From Candidatus Saccharimonadota bacterium (GTDB taxonomy: Bacteria > Patescibacteriota > Saccharimonadia > Saccharimonadales > Saccharimonadaceae): 64,000 bases of DNA. Of the stretch, positions 4,262 through 63,271 are shown one piece after another. The stretch spans positions 62,001-126,000 of the forward strand of contig JAFQYG010000002.1 in the NCBI GenBank assembly GCA_017406565.1. Direction: 5' to 3'. The number at the start of each line of letters is the position of its first letter. The first letter of the stretch is position 1. The notes beneath the pieces are model-generated. The model was not told the origin of the DNA. It did no database searches and saw only the letters and a program-made list of their open reading frames with translations. A program made the translations under genes and the position numbers.

Positions 4262-5422
4262 ATGTTGGTGTCTGACTATAATTATGATTTACCGGAAGAA
4301 CGGATTGCGAAATTTCCACCAGAAGTGCGTGGAACTACAAGATTATTAGTATTAAATCGTGAAACTGGCGAAATGCAAGATTCGTATTATCGGGATTTGA
4401 CGGATTTTTTGAATTCCGGAGATGTGTTAGTTTTAAATGATACGCGAGTGATGCAGTCGCGTTTGTTTTGCGAATTATCGGATGGACGCAAGCGAGAATT
4501 AGTAGTACTGGAAAAACACGGTGATGAACCGCAACGAGTGATGTATCGAGGGAAGCTGCATGATGGAGATGAGTTGACGCTTGATAATAGTTCTTTCGAG
4601 GAGCATAATCGCCGACGGGGCGATTACGGAGCGACCGAGCCCCGTAACGACGGGTGCGAGGGAGCGTTCCGAGAAAGAATCTTTATCAAGCGGATTCTAG
4701 GTAACGGTATTGCAGAGGTTGAGTCAGATACACCGCTTGCTGAGTTGGCTGAGGAATATGGTACGGTGCCTTTACCGCCGTATTTGCATCGTGATGCGAC
4801 TGAAGCAGATAAAAAACGTTATCAAACGGTTTGGGCAAAAAACATGGGTTCGGCAGCTGCGCCGACGGCGAGTTTGAACATGACGGATGAGTTACTTGAA
4901 AAGCTACGTAGAAAAGGTGTAATTATTAAGTATCTGACGCTTCATGTTGGGCTCGGAACATTTTTACCAATTCGAAGTGATAAGGTAGAAGAACACAAGA
5001 TGCATTCGGAATGGTTTTATATTCCCGAAGATACGCTAAAGGAAATAGAGCGAGTAAAAGGGGACGGGTGGCGGACATGGGAGGGTTCCCACGGAGCTCC
5101 CGAAGGGAGGAGTCGTGGGAAGGAAATGTCCGACAGGACCCGTCCCCGCATAATCGCGCTGGGTACTACTGTGGCTAGGACTTTGGAGTATTATGGTAAA
5201 ACTGGTAAGACTGAAGGGGAAGATGACATTTTTATTTATCCTGGGTTTGAATTTAGGGTGATAGATGCGTTACTTACGAATTTTCATGCGCCGAAATCCA
5301 CAGTGTTGATGCTGACAGCAGCATTTGCTAGTTGGGAATATTTAAAGCCGGCTTATGAACATGCGGTGAAAGCTAACTATAACTTCCTTAGTTATGGCGA
5401 TTCGATGTTTATCTATCAGTAA
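4262..5422 (+). CDS. queA: S-adenosylmethionine:tRNA ribosyltransferase-isomerase with two inserted palindromic elements
   Basis: Adds the epoxycyclopentane precursor to 7-deazaguanine in tRNA (queuosine pathway). Family signatures are clear: FDYDLPEERIA-like N-terminus, VLNDTRVMQSRL, PLPPYLHR, YQTVWA, SAAAPTASLNM, LHVGLGTFLPIR, HSEWF, IALGTTVARTLE, FIYPGF, LLTNFHAPKSTVLML, FLSYGDSMFI. Two segments have no counterpart in ordinary QueA: about residues 108-140 and 267-296. They are exactly the translations of GC-rich palindromic repeats (see separate entries) and fall in loops. The frame is kept, so the enzyme is probably active. No other queuosine genes are in the window. TATAAT at 4248-4253 ends 8 nt before the ATG, again a leaderless configuration. 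Confidence 0.95.
   Translation: MLVSDYNYDLPEERIAKFPPEVRGTTRLLVLNRETGEMQDSYYRDLTDFLNSGDVLVLNDTRVMQSRLFCELSDGRKRELVVLEKHGDEPQRVMYRGKLHDGDELTLDNSSFEEHNRRRGDYGATEPRNDGCEGAFRERIFIKRILGNGIAEVESDTPLAELAEEYGTVPLPPYLHRDATEADKKRYQTVWAKNMGSAAAPTASLNMTDELLEKLRRKGVIIKYLTLHVGLGTFLPIRSDKVEEHKMHSEWFYIPEDTLKEIERVKGDGWRTWEGSHGAPEGRSRGKEMSDRTRPRIIALGTTVARTLEYYGKTGKTEGEDDIFIYPGFEFRVIDALLTNFHAPKSTVLMLTAAFASWEYLKPAYEHAVKANYNFLSYGDSMFIYQ
4582..4688 (+). repeat. In-frame palindromic element, family 1, copy in queA
   Basis: GC-rich insert in an AT-rich gene. Terminal inverted TTCTTTC (4591-4597) and GAAAGAA (4673-4679) are extended outward by TGATAA (4582-4587) and TTATCA (4683-4688). The core GCCCCGTAACGACGGG lies near 4638-4653. 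The encoded peptide contains EPRNDG. Thirty core bases match the copy in the TRM11-like gene at 27 positions. Confidence 0.85.
5060..5147 (+). repeat. In-frame palindromic element, family 2, copy in queA
   Basis: GGGGACGGGT (5060-5069) is mirrored by ACCCGTCCCC (5138-5147), with further paired blocks inside (GGACAT with ATGTCC, TTCCCACG with CGTGGGAA). The element is 88 nt long and open in the queA frame, where it encodes a Gly/Arg/Ser-rich loop between VK and RIIALGTT. Its reverse complement aligns with the copy at 6801-6880 through GGAYGGGTCCTGYCGG. Confidence 0.82.
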
Positions 5423-5464: not shown

Positions 5465-6721
5465 ATGAAACTTTCAGAAGAGTTGATTTATCGTGGCTTT
5501 AAAGCTGAAACAACCATTGAAAATCCAGCGGATTTAGATACGAGAGAGAATAGGAAGTATTATATCGGATTAGACCCTTCAGCTGATTCCTTGACGATTG
5601 GTAATTTGGCAGCTTTAATGATGTCGGCATGTTTTGCAAGACACGGTTATGAACCGTTTTTATTAGTTGGTGGCGCTACAGGACAGATTGGTGACCCTAA
5701 GGATAATGGTGAGCGTGATTTGAAAGCGCTTGATGAAGTGAAGCATAATAAAAAATGTATTAAAGAACAAATTGAACATGTAGTACGTGCAGGTGGCGGA
5801 GAAGCAGCAAAAGTTCCAATTACAATGGTAGATAATTACGATTGGTTTAAAGATATTAAATATCTAGACTTTTTGCGAGAAGTAGGTAAAGCATTTTCAA
5901 TGACACAACTTTTAGATAGGCAATTCGTACAGAATCGTATCGGTGAAGGTGGTTCTGGGATAAGCTATGCTGAATTTTCGTACACTTTAATTCAGGGGTA
6001 TGATTTCTTACATCTATATCGTGAACATGACGTAAAAATGCAACTTTGTGGTGCAGATCAGTTTGGGAATTGTACATCAGGTGTGCATTTGATTAAAAGA
6101 TTAGAAAATGGTTCGGCTGATGTGTGGTCTACACCATTAATTATTGATCCAGTGACTGGTAGAAAATTTGGTAAATCTGAAGGTAATGCGATTTGGCTTG
6201 CTGCAACCGATAATGGTTCTGGCAATTTTACGCCAGTCTTTGATTTCTATCAGTTTTGGCTAAACCAACCAGATGAGAGCGCGGAATATCTGATAAAGAT
6301 TTACACCTTGCTTTCAAAGGACGAGATTGAAGCAATTTTGAAAGAACATAAGAAGTCACCAGAAAAGCGAATTGCACAAAAGGCTTTGGCGCGAGGTGCT
6401 ACTGAAGTAGTACATGGTAAGAAAGCTGCTGATGCAGTGGAGGCTTTGACTGAGAAATTGTTTGATTTGAAGACTGATTTTAAAGATTTTACTGAAGATG
6501 AGATTATTGAGTTTGCGGAATTTTTGCCAACAGTGAAGAAAGGTGTTAAGTTAGTAGACGTATTAGTTGAAAATGGTTTAGCAGAGTCAAAGAAGAAAGC
6601 TCGCGAGTTTATTTCACAAGGTGCGATTACTGTAAATGGCGAAAAAGCTTCTGAAGATGTAGCTATTAAGCAAACTGCTATCGTAAAGAAGGGTAAGAAT
6701 AAATTTGTAATTGTAAAATGA
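5465..6721 (+). CDS. tyrS: Tyrosyl-tRNA synthetase
   Basis: Class I synthetase that charges tRNA-Tyr. Seen: the tyrosine-site N-terminal fold with GLDPSADSLTIGNL (HIGH-like motif), GGATGQIGDPKD, YDFLHLYREHDVKMQLCGADQFGN, and the KMSKS-like loop KFGKSEGN; the C-terminal S4 RNA-binding domain is intact (ESKKKAREFISQGAITVNG). The 418-residue length is normal. It has its own TATAAT box (5426-5431) and, unlike its leaderless neighbours, a short leader with AAAGGAAAGG. Its TGA stop overlaps the ATG of the next gene (ATGA at 6718), so the two are translationally coupled. Confidence 0.96.
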   Translation: MKLSEELIYRGFKAETTIENPADLDTRENRKYYIGLDPSADSLTIGNLAALMMSACFARHGYEPFLLVGGATGQIGDPKDNGERDLKALDEVKHNKKCIKEQIEHVVRAGGGEAAKVPITMVDNYDWFKDIKYLDFLREVGKAFSMTQLLDRQFVQNRIGEGGSGISYAEFSYTLIQGYDFLHLYREHDVKMQLCGADQFGNCTSGVHLIKRLENGSADVWSTPLIIDPVTGRKFGKSEGNAIWLAATDNGSGNFTPVFDFYQFWLNQPDESAEYLIKIYTLLSKDEIEAILKEHKKSPEKRIAQKALARGATEVVHGKKAADAVEALTEKLFDLKTDFKDFTEDEIIEFAEFLPTVKKGVKLVDVLVENGLAESKKKAREFISQGAITVNGEKASEDVAIKQTAIVKKGKNKFVIVK

Positions 6722-7953
6722 AATACTTAGCGGTACTGGGTAGGCAACCGGAGATATCAATAGCGGAACTTGAAGCACTGTTTTCTGATATGCAGATTCT
6801 GGATGGGTCCTGCCGGCTCTTTTCCTCCCCCAAAAATGATGACATTTTTGGGGGTCCCCCTCCAGAGCCGTCACCCGTCCATGTGATACATTTTGAAACC
6901 AGTGATATAATTACTATTGCTCGTCTTGGGGGTACTTTGAAGTTAGCGGTGGAGCTAATGGAAAAACCGTTGGATTATTTATTAAAGCTACCGGAAGGGA
7001 AGATTACATTAGGGGTATCGGATTATTCTAATAAAGCCTCGCGGAAAACGGCAACAACGGAAGCTTTGAAGTTGAAAAGAGTTTTAGCAAAACAAGGTCG
7101 AAGCGTGAGAGTAGTTGAGAATAAAGAAGCGGTTTTGTCCACGGCTACTTCTTTGCATAATGGATTATCTGGTAAGAATGAGCGCAAAGTTGAACTAATA
7201 AAAGTTGATAATGATTGGTATAAAGTAATTGGCGTACAAGACATTGATGCATATGCAAAACGTGACCAGGCGCGTCCAGCACGAGATGCAAAAGTTGGGA
7301 TGTTGCCACCAAAATTGGCGCAGATTTTGATTAATTTGTGTGGACCACTTAAACCTGGCATGACAGTATTAGACCCATTTTGTGGGACAGGAGTGGTGCT
7401 CCAAGAAGCGCTACTTATGGGATATCGAGCATATGGAACGGACGTTAGTGAACGGATGGTTGAGTATTCCCAAAAGAACCTGAAATGGTTTCTTTCTGAG
7501 CATTGCGACCAACGGGGAGCATGTTCGAGCGAGCCCCGTAACGACGGGCGCGAGCGAGAACGCGAAGAAAGAAATCTATTTCAGGTTCAAGTTGGTGATG
7601 CTACCACTTTTCAATGGGAGCAGCCGATTGATGCGGTGGCGTGTGAAGGTTATCTTGGCAAGCCATTTTCGAAAATCCCGACAGAAATGGAATTAAAGGA
7701 GCAAAAACAGGAATGTGGGACGATTGTGCTAGGGTTTTTGAAGAATTTAGCTTCTCAGATTAAAACGGAAACGCCTGTGACAATAGCGGCGCCGGCGTGG
7801 CTGAGGGAAAATGGCGAATATTCCAGGCTAGAAATTGTTGACGAAATTGAGAAATTGGGGTATAATGTTAATAATAAAACGCGCGAGGGGCTTCTTTATC
7901 ATCGAGAGAGGCAAGTCGTTGCGAGAGATATATTAATTTTAAGGAAAAAGTAA
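6718..7953 (+). CDS. TRM11-like SAM-dependent RNA methyltransferase with two palindromic inserts
   Basis: Probable tRNA guanosine N2-methyltransferase of the TRM11/TrmG10 group (COG1041 type). The C-terminal half holds a Rossmann methyltransferase core: LDPFCGTGVVLQEALLMGYRAYGTD (motif I, near residue 216) and VEYSQKNL. The usual catalytic (D/N)PPY is replaced by CEGYLGKPF, a variant, so the methylation target is uncertain. The N-terminal half (IAELEALF, SNKASRKTATTEALKLKR) resembles the THUMP-containing part of the family. Two GC-rich palindromic elements lie in frame: 6801-6880 (about residues 28-55, in the N-terminal part) and 7479-7585 (about 254-290, inside the methyltransferase domain after motif II). 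The gene overlaps tyrS by 4 nt and abuts rpmA. Confidence 0.8.
   Translation: MKYLAVLGRQPEISIAELEALFSDMQILDGSCRLFSSPKNDDIFGGPPPEPSPVHVIHFETSDIITIARLGGTLKLAVELMEKPLDYLLKLPEGKITLGVSDYSNKASRKTATTEALKLKRVLAKQGRSVRVVENKEAVLSTATSLHNGLSGKNERKVELIKVDNDWYKVIGVQDIDAYAKRDQARPARDAKVGMLPPKLAQILINLCGPLKPGMTVLDPFCGTGVVLQEALLMGYRAYGTDVSERMVEYSQKNLKWFLSEHCDQRGACSSEPRNDGREREREERNLFQVQVGDATTFQWEQPIDAVACEGYLGKPFSKIPTEMELKEQKQECGTIVLGFLKNLASQIKTETPVTIAAPAWLRENGEYSRLEIVDEIEKLGYNVNNKTREGLLYHRERQVVARDILILRKK
6801..6880 (+). repeat. In-frame palindromic element, family 2, copy in the TRM11-like gene
   Basis: GGATGGGT (6801-6808) is mirrored by ACCCGTCC (6873-6880); CGGCTCT pairs with AGAGCCG, and CCCCCAAAAATG with CATTTTTGGGGG. 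The outer arm GGAYGGGTCCTGYCGG is shared with the queA copy (5060-5147, reverse complement), while the inner stem is different. Open in the host frame. Confidence 0.82.
7479..7585 (+). repeat. In-frame palindromic element, family 1, copy in the TRM11-like gene
   Basis: Core with GCCCCGTAACGACGGG inside TTTCTTTC...GAAAGAAA ends, extended by the locus-specific arms CCTGAAAT (7479-7486) and ATTTCAGG (7578-7585). The peptide contains SEPRNDGRERE. It matches the queA and dusB copies at 27 of 30 core bases each and sits in the same frame and orientation relative to the gene. Confidence 0.88.
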
Positions 7954-19795: not shown

Positions 19796-21835
19796 ATGTC
19801 CATGACAAAAGAAAAACATATAATATTAGCTTCAATAGGACTAAGTCTGATGGTCCTTGCTGGAGCTTTTTTGAGTTGCCAGGATACATTTGCCGCATAC
19901 GAAGGCTTTTACCTCAACCTCTCCTCTTCGGGCTCGCAGTCTATTGATGTCTCTAGTTCTGGCGATAAGACAGCTATCAGTGCAGATAATATCAATGTAG
20001 CTACTAACTGTAGATATGGCTATAACCTAACTCTCTCTACTTCAGTAAATAATAATAATCTATATCTAAATGGTAATAGCTCTAATAATACAACTGGTAC
20101 ATACTTCTCTCCAGTAAATGGCACTACCTCGTTAAAGGACTCTCCTAATACCTGGGGATACTATTTTGATAGTTCATATATTCATAATGGTTCATCACCC
20201 ACTGTGCCTAATTCATCATCTATCTTCTCTCCTGTACCTACACTAAATAACCCTGCTACTATTATGACCCCGTTAATGCTAGAGAATGATACGGATATTA
20301 ATGATTCTTTTAATATCTACTATGGTGTAGCATCATCAGATGATATGCCTGTAGGCACATATAAACTAATACCAGATACTAATAACTCAGGTAATGATGG
20401 AACTCTAGTCTATAATGCTACTATTGCTGATACTTGCATGAGATATACAGTTCATTTTAATCCTTCTAGTTACTTTGAAGATAATCTAATTACTGGTACT
20501 GGTACAGTAGCAGACCAGACCATTTATGAAGGTGTAGCTACTCCACTCACAACTTCTACCTTTACTGCTCCAAGTGGTTACTATTTTGCTGGTTGGAATA
20601 CGGCTCAAGATGGTTCTGGTACCAGCTATGCATCAGGACAATCTGTGACTGACCTGACTACCGCAGGAGATACTATCACTCTTTATGCCATGTGGACGGA
20701 TTGTCCAAGCAACAACATTTGCTACAATGCCAATGTAGCGAATGCTAGTGAAATAGAAGGTAGTATGGGTAACCAGACAATATCCAGTTCAGCCACTTCA
20801 GCTACGCTTTATGCCCCTAATTACAAACATGCAGGCTTTGGTTTTAAATCTTGGAATACTAAGAAAGACGGGACTGGTACTAACTATGGACCAAACCAAA
20901 CGATAGAATTTACTGCCGGACAGTATAGTACTGGTGGACTTAAACTCTATGCTACCTGGGTAGAAAGTAATGGTAATATGCAAAACTGGTCTGGATGTTC
21001 TAGTATGAGCATAGGTGACGTGACTGCATTAAAAGACACTAGAGACAACAATGTCTATGCCGTAGCTAAACTCGCAGACGGAAAATGCTGGACTATAGAA
21101 AACTTAAGGCTAGACGATTCTGCAGAACTATCTACCACAAACACCCATAATCCATCTCTTCCAATCACTAATGTCTATGATGCTACTAACCCAACCACTT
21201 CCAATCATCTCTCAGCTACTACAGATCCAACCACCACTGCCTGGTGCCAAGCTAACTCATCCGCCTGTGACGACCAATCCATGCTAGCCACCAACAATAC
21301 CACTCTCTTCACCAACAATACTTCTACTAGCTACAGTGTATCTAGTAACGTTTACTCCTATGGTAACTATTACAACTGGTATTCAGCTACAGCAGGAAAT
21401 GGTAAATACGGTTCTAGCTACAGCCAAGGCTACGAATCGCCAGGAGATATCTGCCCAGCAGGATGGCATCTACCAAAAGGCGGTAACAAATCCCAAGAGT
21501 CCACCAACGAATTCTGGCAACTGATCACTACTGGACTAAATAATGGGGTTAATCCAGCTAACTATGATAGCACCACGCAACCATATTATACAGGGACAGA
21601 AGCTACTCCAGTATCTAATGCTTTAAGATCCTATCCTAACAACTTTGTCTATTCCGGCTACGTGCTTGGCTCTTCAGTTAACTACCGCGGTTCACGCGGG
21701 GGCTATTGGTCGTCCTCGGCGTACGGTAGTAACGGCGCCTACCTCTTGCGCTTCTATAGCAGTCTCGTCTACCCAGGCACGGACTACAGCAACAAGTACA
21801 GCGGGTGGTTGGTGCGTTGCGTCGCTGGCGTGTAG
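19796..21835 (+). CDS. Secreted DGR-type lectin-like protein with InlB-type repeats (lectin A)
   Basis: Secreted protein of 679 residues. Signal peptide (about 1-34, hydrophobic core LASIGLSLMVLAGAFLS, AxA-like TFAA). A Ser/Thr/Asn-rich beta region follows, then two InlB/Listeria-Bacteroides-type repeats (about 217-300 ending LYAMW, 303-388 ending LYATW), each with the AGWNT or SWNTKKDGTGT motif. The C-terminal domain is the Fibrobacter succinogenes major paralogous type (MQNWSGC, ALKDTRDNNVYAVAKLADGKCWTIENLRLD, ICPAGWHLPKGG), a C-type-lectin/FGE-like fold. Its last ~60 residues are the variable region (separate entry). No sortase motif or C-terminal anchor is seen. TATAAT is at 19762-19767. 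The probable role is binding on the cell surface; the target is unknown. Confidence 0.85.
   Translation: MSMTKEKHIILASIGLSLMVLAGAFLSCQDTFAAYEGFYLNLSSSGSQSIDVSSSGDKTAISADNINVATNCRYGYNLTLSTSVNNNNLYLNGNSSNNTTGTYFSPVNGTTSLKDSPNTWGYYFDSSYIHNGSSPTVPNSSSIFSPVPTLNNPATIMTPLMLENDTDINDSFNIYYGVASSDDMPVGTYKLIPDTNNSGNDGTLVYNATIADTCMRYTVHFNPSSYFEDNLITGTGTVADQTIYEGVATPLTTSTFTAPSGYYFAGWNTAQDGSGTSYASGQSVTDLTTAGDTITLYAMWTDCPSNNICYNANVANASEIEGSMGNQTISSSATSATLYAPNYKHAGFGFKSWNTKKDGTGTNYGPNQTIEFTAGQYSTGGLKLYATWVESNGNMQNWSGCSSMSIGDVTALKDTRDNNVYAVAKLADGKCWTIENLRLDDSAELSTTNTHNPSLPITNVYDATNPTTSNHLSATTDPTTTAWCQANSSACDDQSMLATNNTTLFTNNTSTSYSVSSNVYSYGNYYNWYSATAGNGKYGSSYSQGYESPGDICPAGWHLPKGGNKSQESTNEFWQLITTGLNNGVNPANYDSTTQPYYTGTEATPVSNALRSYPNNFVYSGYVLGSSVNYRGSRGGYWSSSAYGSNGAYLLRFYSSLVYPGTDYSNKYSGWLVRCVAGV
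21641..21832 (+). other. DGR-type variable region of lectin A
   Basis: GC content rises abruptly over the last ~190 nt of the gene. The fixed frame includes GGYWSSSAY and VRCVAGV. Codons that differ from lectins B and C change mainly at the first two bases and keep C or T at the third, as expected from adenine mutagenesis of AAC or AAT template codons. Confidence 0.8.
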
Positions 21836-30534: not shown

Positions 30535-30701
30535 TATTTTAATATATTATTTTATTTATACTTCACTTACGCCAGGAAGATTTTTAAATATTTTTTAACG
30601 AATTTTTTTTCGCTACGCCCACCACCCTCGCTCAAAAATTCTAAAATATCTAAAAATCTTCTTGGGTTCGTTCAAAATAAATAAAATAATATATTAAAAT
30701 A
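30535..30701. repeat. Large intergenic palindrome with GC-rich cap
   Basis: A 25-bp perfect inverted repeat of AT-rich sequence (30535-30559 with 30677-30701; begins TATTTTAATATATTATTTTA) encloses a second paired block (AAGATTTTTA with TAAAAATCTT) and a GC-rich tip. On the minus strand the tip reads GAGCGAGGGTGGTGGGCG then TAGCGA, which recalls the family 1 core (GAGCGAG...GGGCG..AGCGA). It is not followed by a gene-proximal T tract. Confidence 0.75.
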
Positions 30702-41218: not shown

Positions 41219-42250
41219 TTATCCTTGAAGGATCTTGCGGGCTTCGGCGACGGAGTGAGTTTCCATTAGTTTTGCACGGAGTTCTTTGGCGCCAGGGAAG
41301 TTGTTGACGTAGATTTTGAAGAAATGTTTCAAGGGTTCGTAAGATGGGATACGTAAATAAGCTTTCTCGTCGCCTTCTCGCTCGCGCCCATCGTCATGGG
41401 GCTCGCTTCGAAGTTCGCTCCCGTTGTCGCGAATGCTCCTCGAAAGTCTATTTACGTATTTGTCATACAAGTCTAAATGTAGTTTCAAAAGATTCATGAG
41501 TTCGTCTTTAGTGGGTGTGTGGTTGGTGAAGCAGTAGGGGTTTTGAAAAACACCGCGGCCGATCATAAAACCGTCGATTTCGGGATATTTGGCGTGAAGT
41601 TCTAGTGCATGGGTACGGTCTTTGATGTCGCCATTGATGATAAGTTTGGTTTTGGGACTGATTTTATTGCGTAGTTCTAGTATTTCTGGGATTAATTCGT
41701 AGTGGGCAGGGACTTTGCTCATTTCTTTTTTAGTACGAAGATGTACAGTAAGAGCGGCAGGGTGTTCATTGAGTAAAGTTGGTAGCCAAGTGCGAAATTC
41801 ATCAATATTACTCCAGCCGAGACGAGTTTTGATAGAAACTGGTAAGTCGGTAGATTTGACAGCATTTCTAAAACATTCCACTGCAAGATCTGGGGTTTTT
41901 ATCATAGCAGCGCCACCACCAGTTTTATTAACATGTTTATCTGGACAGCCAAAATTAAGGTCTACACCCGAAAATCCAAGTTCTGCTAGAGCTTGACATG
42001 TTTCTGCAAAATGCTCAGGATTTTTGCCCCAAATTTGAGCGATAATCGGAGTATCACTAGGCGCTATTTTGAGACGCTCTAAAGCGTTCCAGCGACCTTT
42101 TTCAGAAGCATATGAAGAGACGTTGGTGAATTCAGTAAAGAATAGGTCTGGGCGGCCGGCATGCGCTATAACTTGTCGAAACATAATATCAGTGACGCCT
42201 TCCATTGGCGCCAAAATCAGAAACGGTTTCGGTAGATTATCCCATATCAT
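41219..42250 (-). CDS. dus: tRNA-dihydrouridine synthase with palindromic insert
   Basis: Flavin enzyme that reduces uridine in tRNA D loops. Seen: PFLILAPMEGVTDIMFRQVI, FTEFTNVSSYASEKGRWNALERL, PIIAQIWGKNPEHFAETCQALAELGFSGVDLNFGCPDKHVNKTGGGAAMIKTPDLAVE (catalytic Cys in GCPDK), VSIKTRLGW, LTVHLRTKKEMSKVPAHYELI, LIINGDIKD and GFMIGRGVFQNPY. The C-terminal helical domain contains a GC-rich in-frame insert (about residues 264-300, SRSIRDNGSELRSEPHDDGR) that is a family 1 palindromic element. TAAAAT ends 6 nt upstream of the ATG. The exact Dus subfamily is not assigned. Confidence 0.92.
   Translation of the reverse strand: MIWDNLPKPFLILAPMEGVTDIMFRQVIAHAGRPDLFFTEFTNVSSYASEKGRWNALERLKIAPSDTPIIAQIWGKNPEHFAETCQALAELGFSGVDLNFGCPDKHVNKTGGGAAMIKTPDLAVECFRNAVKSTDLPVSIKTRLGWSNIDEFRTWLPTLLNEHPAALTVHLRTKKEMSKVPAHYELIPEILELRNKISPKTKLIINGDIKDRTHALELHAKYPEIDGFMIGRGVFQNPYCFTNHTPTKDELMNLLKLHLDLYDKYVNRLSRSIRDNGSELRSEPHDDGREREGDEKAYLRIPSYEPLKHFFKIYVNNFPGAKELRAKLMETHSVAEARKILQG
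41348..41458 (-). repeat. In-frame palindromic element, family 1, copy in dus
   Basis: Core with GCCCCATGACGATGGG, read on the coding strand, and TTTC...GAAAG ends, bounded by perfect 11-bp arms ATACGTAAATA (41348-41358) and TATTTACGTAT (41448-41458). It encodes SEPHDDGRERE. Compared with the copy in the TRM11-like gene, CCCGT/ACGGG has become CCCAT/ATGGG: two paired changes that keep the hairpin. Confidence 0.88.
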
Positions 42251-61582: not shown

Positions 61583-63271
61583 ATGAATAAGAAACATTTT
61601 CTGTTGATCGTGTGTGGAATGACTATATTTGTTGGATGTGAAAAAGCTTCCGCCCTCACCTACTCTTCCAATGTAGAGGTCGGCTTCACCTTCAATCCCA
61701 CTATCTCAGTAAACTTGTCTGGCGATCTACTAATCAATAATCTCTCCCCAGGTTCAGTCTCAGACTCTAATGTCATTAATGTTAATGTAGCTACCAATGC
61801 CTCACAAGGCTATGTTTTGACTGCTACTTCCGGTACAAAAACTACTAATACAGACTTAGTCAATCAAACCAACTCAGCCTATAAGTTCTCCAGTATTGCT
61901 ACTAATGCTAGTCTATCAAACCTCACTACAGACAATACTTGGGGCTATAGCTATTCAGAAGATAGTGGTACTAATTGGTCTAACTACTCAGGTCTTCCAT
62001 TAGACAATGATGATGAAGGAGCTACCGGAAAACAATTAATCAATACTATTAACCCAGCAGACAATAGAACTCTACAATTCAAAATAGCAGCTAGAGCATC
62101 CAGTAACCAAGCTGCTGGTACTTATCAAAATACTATTAACTTCTATGCTGTAGCTAATCCTGATCCTACTCTTCAACCTGTTTCCTGTCCTGCTGGGAAG
62201 GTTTGCTATAATGCTAACTCCCTCACCACTGTTCAAGGTGAGATGGGACAACAGACACCAACTACTGATGAGTTAACCAATGGCATTACTCTTTGGGCCT
62301 CCAACTTCAAACGTGACGGCTATGGCTTTGCTGGCTGGGCTGACTCAACTACCTATAATGGTTTAAGATACGGCCCCAACCAAACCATCACAGCCCCAAG
62401 TGACGTTTCAACTAATGGCTACTCCCTCTACGCCATCTGGATTCCTTCTGCTGGCGATATGCAAAACTGGACTGGTTGTTCTAGTTTAAGTCAAGGTGAA
62501 GTTACTGCTCTTAAAGACACCAGAGATAATAATGTCTATGCTGTAGCTAAATTAGCAGACAACAAATGCTGGATGATAGAAAACCTCAGACTAGATGACT
62601 CCGCTGAGCTCTCTTCTACGAATACTCACAGCCCATCACTGCCTCTCACGAATATTTACGATTCTAGTACTACGTCAAATCACCTCTCCTCAACTTCATC
62701 ACTAGCCTATGATGCAACTACTGCTCCAGAAGGCTGGTGTTCCACTGACTCTTCTGCCTGTGACGATCAATCTAGACTCCGAACAGATAATACCACCCTC
62801 TTCACTGACAACACATCTTCTAGCTACAATGCCGAAAGTAATGTCTACTCCTATGGCAACTACTACAACTGGTATTCTGCTACAGCTGGTCACGGTAAAT
62901 ATGGCTCTTCTTATGGTAGTGGATACACCGCTCCGGGCGATATCTGTCCTGCAGGATGGCACTTACCAACTGGAGGAAGTGCTACGGCGGAATTTGGTGC
63001 TCTGGACATAGCTATGGGTGGTACAGGAGCAACTCAATCTACTGCAGAGGCTTCCAACAGATGGAGAACTCATCCTAACAACTTTGTCTATTCCGGGGGC
63101 GCGGGTTCGTCGGTCTACTTCCGTGATTCCGGCGGGTTCTATTGGTCGTCTTCGGCGTACAATAGTAGCCTCGCCTACAACTTGTACTTGTACGGTAACT
63201 ACGTCAGCCCAGGCACTGTCTACCCCAGCAAGTACGACGGGAGGATGGCGCGTTGCGTCGCTGGCGTATAG
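61583..63271 (+). CDS. Secreted DGR-type lectin-like protein (lectin C)
   Basis: 562 residues; closest relative in the window is lectin B. Signal peptide about 1-25 (LLIVCGMTIFVGCEKASA). The N-terminal beta domain (LTYSSNVEVGFTFNPTISVNLSGDLLINNLSPG), one InlB-type repeat (GFAGWADSTTYNGLRYGPNQ...LYAIW) and the paralogous domain (MQNWTGCSSLSQGEVTALKDTRDNNVYAVAKLADNKCWMIENLRLD, ICPAGWHLPTGG) are intact, and the variable region closes the protein with the same C-terminus (CVAGV) as lectin A. TATAAT (61571-61576) ends 6 nt before the ATG. It lies 35 kb from the other three lectin genes. Confidence 0.86.
   Translation: MNKKHFLLIVCGMTIFVGCEKASALTYSSNVEVGFTFNPTISVNLSGDLLINNLSPGSVSDSNVINVNVATNASQGYVLTATSGTKTTNTDLVNQTNSAYKFSSIATNASLSNLTTDNTWGYSYSEDSGTNWSNYSGLPLDNDDEGATGKQLINTINPADNRTLQFKIAARASSNQAAGTYQNTINFYAVANPDPTLQPVSCPAGKVCYNANSLTTVQGEMGQQTPTTDELTNGITLWASNFKRDGYGFAGWADSTTYNGLRYGPNQTITAPSDVSTNGYSLYAIWIPSAGDMQNWTGCSSLSQGEVTALKDTRDNNVYAVAKLADNKCWMIENLRLDDSAELSSTNTHSPSLPLTNIYDSSTTSNHLSSTSSLAYDATTAPEGWCSTDSSACDDQSRLRTDNTTLFTDNTSSSYNAESNVYSYGNYYNWYSATAGHGKYGSSYGSGYTAPGDICPAGWHLPTGGSATAEFGALDIAMGGTGATQSTAEASNRWRTHPNNFVYSGGAGSSVYFRDSGGFYWSSSAYNSSLAYNLYLYGNYVSPGTVYPSKYDGRMARCVAGV
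63080..63268 (+). other. DGR-type variable region of lectin C
   Basis: GC-rich 3' end, same frame as A and B (tat tgg tcg tct tcg gcg tac; cca ggc). Toward the end the three genes read gac/tac/gtc, tac/ggc/tac, agc/tac/ccc, agc/ctc/gac at successive variable codons: the third base is always C. Confidence 0.82.

Follow-up and report, generated by a model that had tools for sequence, protein, structure and literature searches.

The three copies of a palindromic element in the window raise the question of how the two arms of a copy can match each other and still differ from the arms of every other copy. The window, a 64,000-nucleotide stretch of DNA, is part of G000, an 815-kb Saccharibacteria genome in 7 contigs. 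An earlier note on it had described a conserved core between inverted arms within dus, queA and a TRM11-like gene, and had proposed that insertion either duplicates the host flank in inverted orientation or is followed by selection that rebuilds the stem. The features concerned are as follows.

41219–42250, − strand: host gene dus (tRNA-dihydrouridine synthase; PF01207, E 7e-50)
41349–41459, − strand: whole F1 palindrome in dus (both arms and the core), coding and in frame
41366–41444, − strand: F1 core in dus (model R1, E 2e-15)
41349–41359: dus outer arm on the gene's 3' side, ATACGTAAATA on the + strand
41449–41459: dus outer arm on the gene's 5' side, TATTTACGTAT on the + strand
4262–5422, + strand: host gene queA (PF02547, E 2e-103)
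4595–4675, + strand: F1 core in queA (model R1, E 9e-22)
4578–4587: queA outer 5' arm, CGCTTGATAA
4683–4692: queA outer 3' arm, TTATCAAGCG
5047–5160: second palindrome in queA, in frame, with an unrelated core and arms AGAGCGAGTAAAAGGGGACGGGT / ACCCGTCCCCGCATAATCGCGCT
6718–7953, + strand: host gene, TRM11-like methyltransferase (TIGR01177, E 8e-19, below the curated cut-off; PF01170, E 5e-9)
7495–7569, + strand: F1 core in the TRM11-like gene (model R1, E 9e-15)
7476–7491: 5' arm in the TRM11-like gene
7573–7588: 3' arm in the TRM11-like gene

The element totals ~120 nt, within the range of interspersed palindromes (about 100–150 bp), and consists of a 75–81-nt conserved core with an inverted arm of ~19 nt on each side. 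The F1 core is GC-rich and folds as a branched hairpin. By using R1, a covariance model of the core, we found 15 strong F1 copies in G000 and detected the core in 48 of the 60 genomes of the genus, which are drafts and mostly metagenome-assembled. Exact matches to the core motif were also sought across a collection covering 84,980 species, and among the matches listed all 80 are from Candidatus Saccharibacteria, many of them from ruminant gut. Of the 72 F1 copies, 68 lie within open frames that are 120 codons or longer, and the flanks of these coding copies align in frame with orthologs, as for in-frame insertions. Specifically, the hosts are housekeeping genes, including leuS, ileS, argS (two sites), trmD, obgE, iscS, tatD, recX, polA and others; the names from leuS to polA come from protein motifs, and profile checks cover dus, queA and the TRM11-like gene, whose ORFs all continue through the element. 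Five of the six frames through arms and core are open in 39–54 of the 68 coding copies and the sixth in 3, and the element therefore appears to be tolerated in almost any frame.

Other searches were less informative. The exact search for long inverted repeats overlooked most elements because the arms contain bulges, genome-wide folding was too unspecific for listing elements, and comparison of the window with Rfam at gathering thresholds returned tRNAs only. Additionally, we observed an intergenic palindrome at 30535–30701 of the window, with ~50-nt arms that are 76% complementary and with no F1 match; three stretches shared by the window genes at 19796–21835 and 61583–63271 at 73–76% DNA identity; and, at C4:39621–39855, C2:166723–166962 and C6:6724–6957 of G000, a tRNA gene followed by a hairpin and then by a repeat of the tRNA 3' end.

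The arms of the window copies lie where the earlier note had placed them, and they are inverted at all three loci. The outer arms are paired at 11/11 positions in dus, 10/10 in queA and 11/11 in the TRM11-like gene (7476–7486, GAACCTGAAAT, versus 7578–7588, ATTTCAGGTTC), so the description of perfect inversion fits the outer part, whereas the full ~19-nt arms hold mismatches or bulges. Across the 72 copies, the arm-to-arm score has a median of 14.25 for a copy's own pair versus 2.0 when a 5' arm is matched with the 3' arm of another copy (95% point 6.0), and mean arm identity is 0.87 within a copy versus 0.54 between different copies. The match of the two arms within a copy exceeds chance. It extends over a defined length: in most columns 80–99% of copies match out to 19–20 nt from the core edge, with a sharp drop beyond. 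Gaps in the stem cluster at columns 6 and 14, and stem length and bulges are therefore fairly regular. The earlier note also held that the arms differ at every locus; this applies to the three window copies but does not extend to the whole family, since one subfamily has recognisably the same arms in unrelated genes.

To follow the arms over time, we compared copies at sites shared between species. For dus, 12 filled species were compared on a codon alignment at the 5' arm, with a pairing register that was set separately in every species from the complementarity of its arms, a choice that slightly favours pairing. The arms of one palindrome mismatch at 9.4% of positions, while the same arm differs between species at 47–48%, and 93.1% of cells are standard pairs. 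Changes on both sides were found at 15 of the 18 pair positions, with 62 doubly changed cells, and the covariation score is 0.760 versus 0.247 when shuffled (0/500) and at most 0.152 when slid. Over 15 shared sites, arm identity is 0.87 within a copy and 0.62 between species, and identity of the outer flanks is 0.67. Comparable pairs of copies, which are not independent of one another, show 37 changed stem columns that are two-sided with pairing kept, 7 that are one-sided and 6 of other kinds; the closest pairs show 10 two-sided versus 2 one-sided changes. Species are mostly ~70–80% identical at element sites, so that single events cannot be polarised. Together, the arms match within a copy and have diverged between lineages, that is, they co-evolve after insertion. 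The earlier suggestion that the stem was rebuilt after insertion is borne out as to the rebuilding itself (arms about 47% diverged and about 91% self-complementary); selection on an RNA stem as its cause is disfavoured, as discussed below.

The core between the arms is not constant either. Both core orientations occur across species at five shared sites, namely tatD, the two argS sites, C3:55606 and dus. The clearest flip is at tatD, where the arms of G055 and G000 are nearly the same and the core is reversed; among these inverted spacers, arm conservation is best at this site. At dus, the core is F1 in G000, reversed F1 in G150, and a different family, F3, in G155, G055, G156 and G076; the queA and TRM11-like sites show the same mix of cores across genomes. 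Furthermore, a second family, F2, occupies four sites in G000 that hold F1 in relatives. Finally, the trimmed cores of two locus pairs are 100% identical, with an arm identity of just 0.59–0.65, so either the arms change faster than the cores or the cores are homogenised among copies. Identical cores between different arms, together with different core families at one site, suggest that cores are exchanged or homogenised among copies. As further observations, F3 (L189, L192, L193, L194, dus site) has the ends GAGGAACAT...CTTCCGAAA in common with F1, and F2 palindromes, whose arms are locus-specific in the same way, lie in G000 at C3:106008, C3:114493, C3:122285, C5:843, C6:9727 and C6:112308. 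G155 was considered as a clean empty-site control and ruled out, being mostly ~69–84% identical to G000 at other element sites and compared loci; its dus gene (L189) is 93% identical, which suggests a recent exchange of the gene.

We consider it probable that F1 is a mobile coding palindrome resembling the Rickettsia palindromic elements (RPEs), and that its own arms are homogenised by template switching at the DNA level after insertion. A small mobile palindromic element would enter protein genes and stay in frame, and during replication one arm would template the other inside the hairpin. Repeated homogenisation would let each copy drift to its own arm sequence with the arms still matching, and the same process could flip the core between them, so that arm identity, two-sided changes and flipped cores would all follow from one process. 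Cores would, in addition, be exchanged between copies or homogenised across them. It is known that template switching within an inverted repeat homogenises its arms and inverts the spacer (PMC8604942); the process reportedly also gives rise to hairpins and maintains them, with compensatory changes of several bases (PMC8794818), and a similar mechanism was proposed for the coding palindromes of Nematomorpha mitochondria (PMC6649704). Replacement of one core family by another is not covered by template switching and needs recombination between copies or re-insertion. It is tempting, though improbable, to regard the arms as lasting docking sites in essential genes, where a dedicated enzyme would read the ~19-bp bulged stem by shape and swap or flip F1, F2 and F3 cores, making a cassette system in coding DNA.

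Two other explanations concern the way in which a copy arises. By fold-back synthesis, insertion would copy ~19 nt of host flank in inverted orientation, as the earlier note had offered; this would account for the fixed arm length, for identical cores that carry different arms, and for insertion lengths that are often near core plus one arm (32–36 aa). Relative to empty relatives, the insertion is mostly 27–41 aa, the one in queA adding about 28–30 aa and the TRM11-like one ~20 aa, versus ~40 aa for the full element; insertions are thus often shorter than the element, and some host codons must have been lost or overwritten. The outer arms in the TRM11-like gene also overlap the host residues N-L-K/E and F-Q-V, which are present in empty orthologs too, and arms can therefore take in host codons at their outer end. 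What speaks against copying of the flank is the sharing of arms. The subfamily with the same arms occupies obgE, iscS, a P-type ATPase gene and others, and between these unrelated loci identity falls to background ~19 nt out from either edge of the core. At unrelated loci more generally, arm similarity increases with core similarity (rho 0.23), as against a rho of 0.00 for the flanks past the arms, and a weak residual consensus is found in both arms. Since unrelated genes share arms and the similarity ends ~19 nt from the core, the arms appear to travel with the element and, judged by this similarity, are probably mostly element DNA by origin. A one-time copy would also leave the concerted arm change between species without account, and at the available divergence empty sites cannot be matched to one arm. 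We therefore regard fold-back synthesis as unlikely. An element that targets pre-existing palindromes in host genes is far less likely still and is unsupported by the empty-site test. Filled and empty versions of the dus loop are each found in many species. Empty sites do not as a rule hold both arms: the empty dus, queA and TRM11-like sites are mostly ordinary, and ten sites that are empty in G000 and filled elsewhere have a mean palindromicity of 7.1/12 versus a background of 7.5. Palindromes do occur at the empty dus sites of G017 and G080 and at the empty TRM11-like site of G008. Of these, the G017 site, EEYEKTHSHIPYE, equals the expected remnant of an in-frame GAGAA-to-GAGAA deletion from a G121-like filled site, and it reads as the deletion scar of a filled site.

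The remaining explanations concern what keeps the arms paired. Selection on an mRNA stem, acting through translation pausing, stability, splicing or ribosome bypass, would fit the strong predicted RNA folds, and under it mismatches tolerated on the mRNA strand should be G-U in preference to A-C. Residual mismatches on this strand comprise 24 G-U versus 20 A-C (p 0.65), with few one-sided G-U states at dus; so few G-U would have p 8e-6 under a true 5:1 preference, and the count is compatible with a mild 2:1 preference (p 0.06). Paired arms are also found in copies outside long reading frames. With no G-U excess and with such copies, the constraint would act on DNA or reflect a mutational process. 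Additionally, cores are found in both orientations, and the rarely open sense frame (3/68) is unused, which would be expected of an insert that is translated and not removed, an argument that is partly circular since frames were called from open ORFs. These data make selection on the mRNA stem very unlikely and favour DNA-level homogenisation over it. Selection could instead keep the hairpin paired at the DNA level, for example if only paired copies move or replicate safely. Symmetric mismatch types, preferred bulge positions and preferred stem length are in its favour; a rather fixed arm length and preferred bulge positions are not predicted by homogenisation alone, and strong selection on a DNA hairpin would be expected to give a similar pattern. 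Against it, the copies are fixed in housekeeping genes, with no obvious gain from mobility, and two-sided changes exceed one-sided ones even in the closest pairs. We give this selection as small a chance as fold-back synthesis and retain template switching.

Of the known systems, the nearest by description are the RPEs and Wolbachia protein-coding palindromes, which are 105–146 bp long, form a long stem-loop with terminal inverted repeats and lie in frame in conserved genes and also outside genes (PMC2229807). F1 resembles the RPEs in size, in its stem-loop with terminal inverted repeats and in its in-frame insertion in conserved genes, but they belong to a different host phylum; no RPE domain model is among the NCBIfam or Pfam matches of the three window proteins, and Rfam gave no match. 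RPEs reportedly lose repeat identity over time (PMC6649704). Unlike them, the arms in Saccharibacteria remain complementary while diverging. To our knowledge, swapped or inverted cores have not been reported for RPEs. Inverted repeats with concerted arm evolution, for which template switching was proposed, also occur in conserved protein genes of Nematomorpha mitochondria (PMC6649704); those arms are much longer and perfect, with no described mobile core family, whereas F1 is an interspersed element of a bacterial genome. At quasi-palindromes in coding DNA, template switching likewise homogenises the arms of an inverted repeat and turns the spacer round (PMC8604942), yet the known cases are single mutation events at short repeats, and the process proposed for F1 would work genus-wide on the copies of a mobile element. 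REP/RAYT elements and other bacterial MITEs (ERIC, Correia, RUP) are likewise short interspersed palindromes that have terminal inverted repeats; unlike F1, they keep a family-wide terminal repeat and lie mostly between genes. The Y1 transposase (PF01797) of a REP/RAYT system is absent from G000 and present in only 2 of the 60 genomes of the genus. For a retroelement or an rve-type DDE element, reverse transcriptase (PF00078) and rve integrase (PF00665) were sought in G000, and both are absent from it. Phage carriage was also considered and rejected, the core motif search of viral contigs having given nothing. The literature searched contained no paper that describes palindromic elements from Saccharibacteria. 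Overall, F1 is a coding palindrome that resembles the RPEs and whose arms are unusually well maintained.

Together, these data extend protein-coding palindromic elements to Saccharibacteria, members of the Candidate Phyla Radiation. The many copies at orthologous sites across the genus show covariation of a kind that is usually taken to prove a functional RNA stem, here without the RNA-strand signature, and they offer a natural experiment on whether template switching is by itself enough to yield compensatory change.
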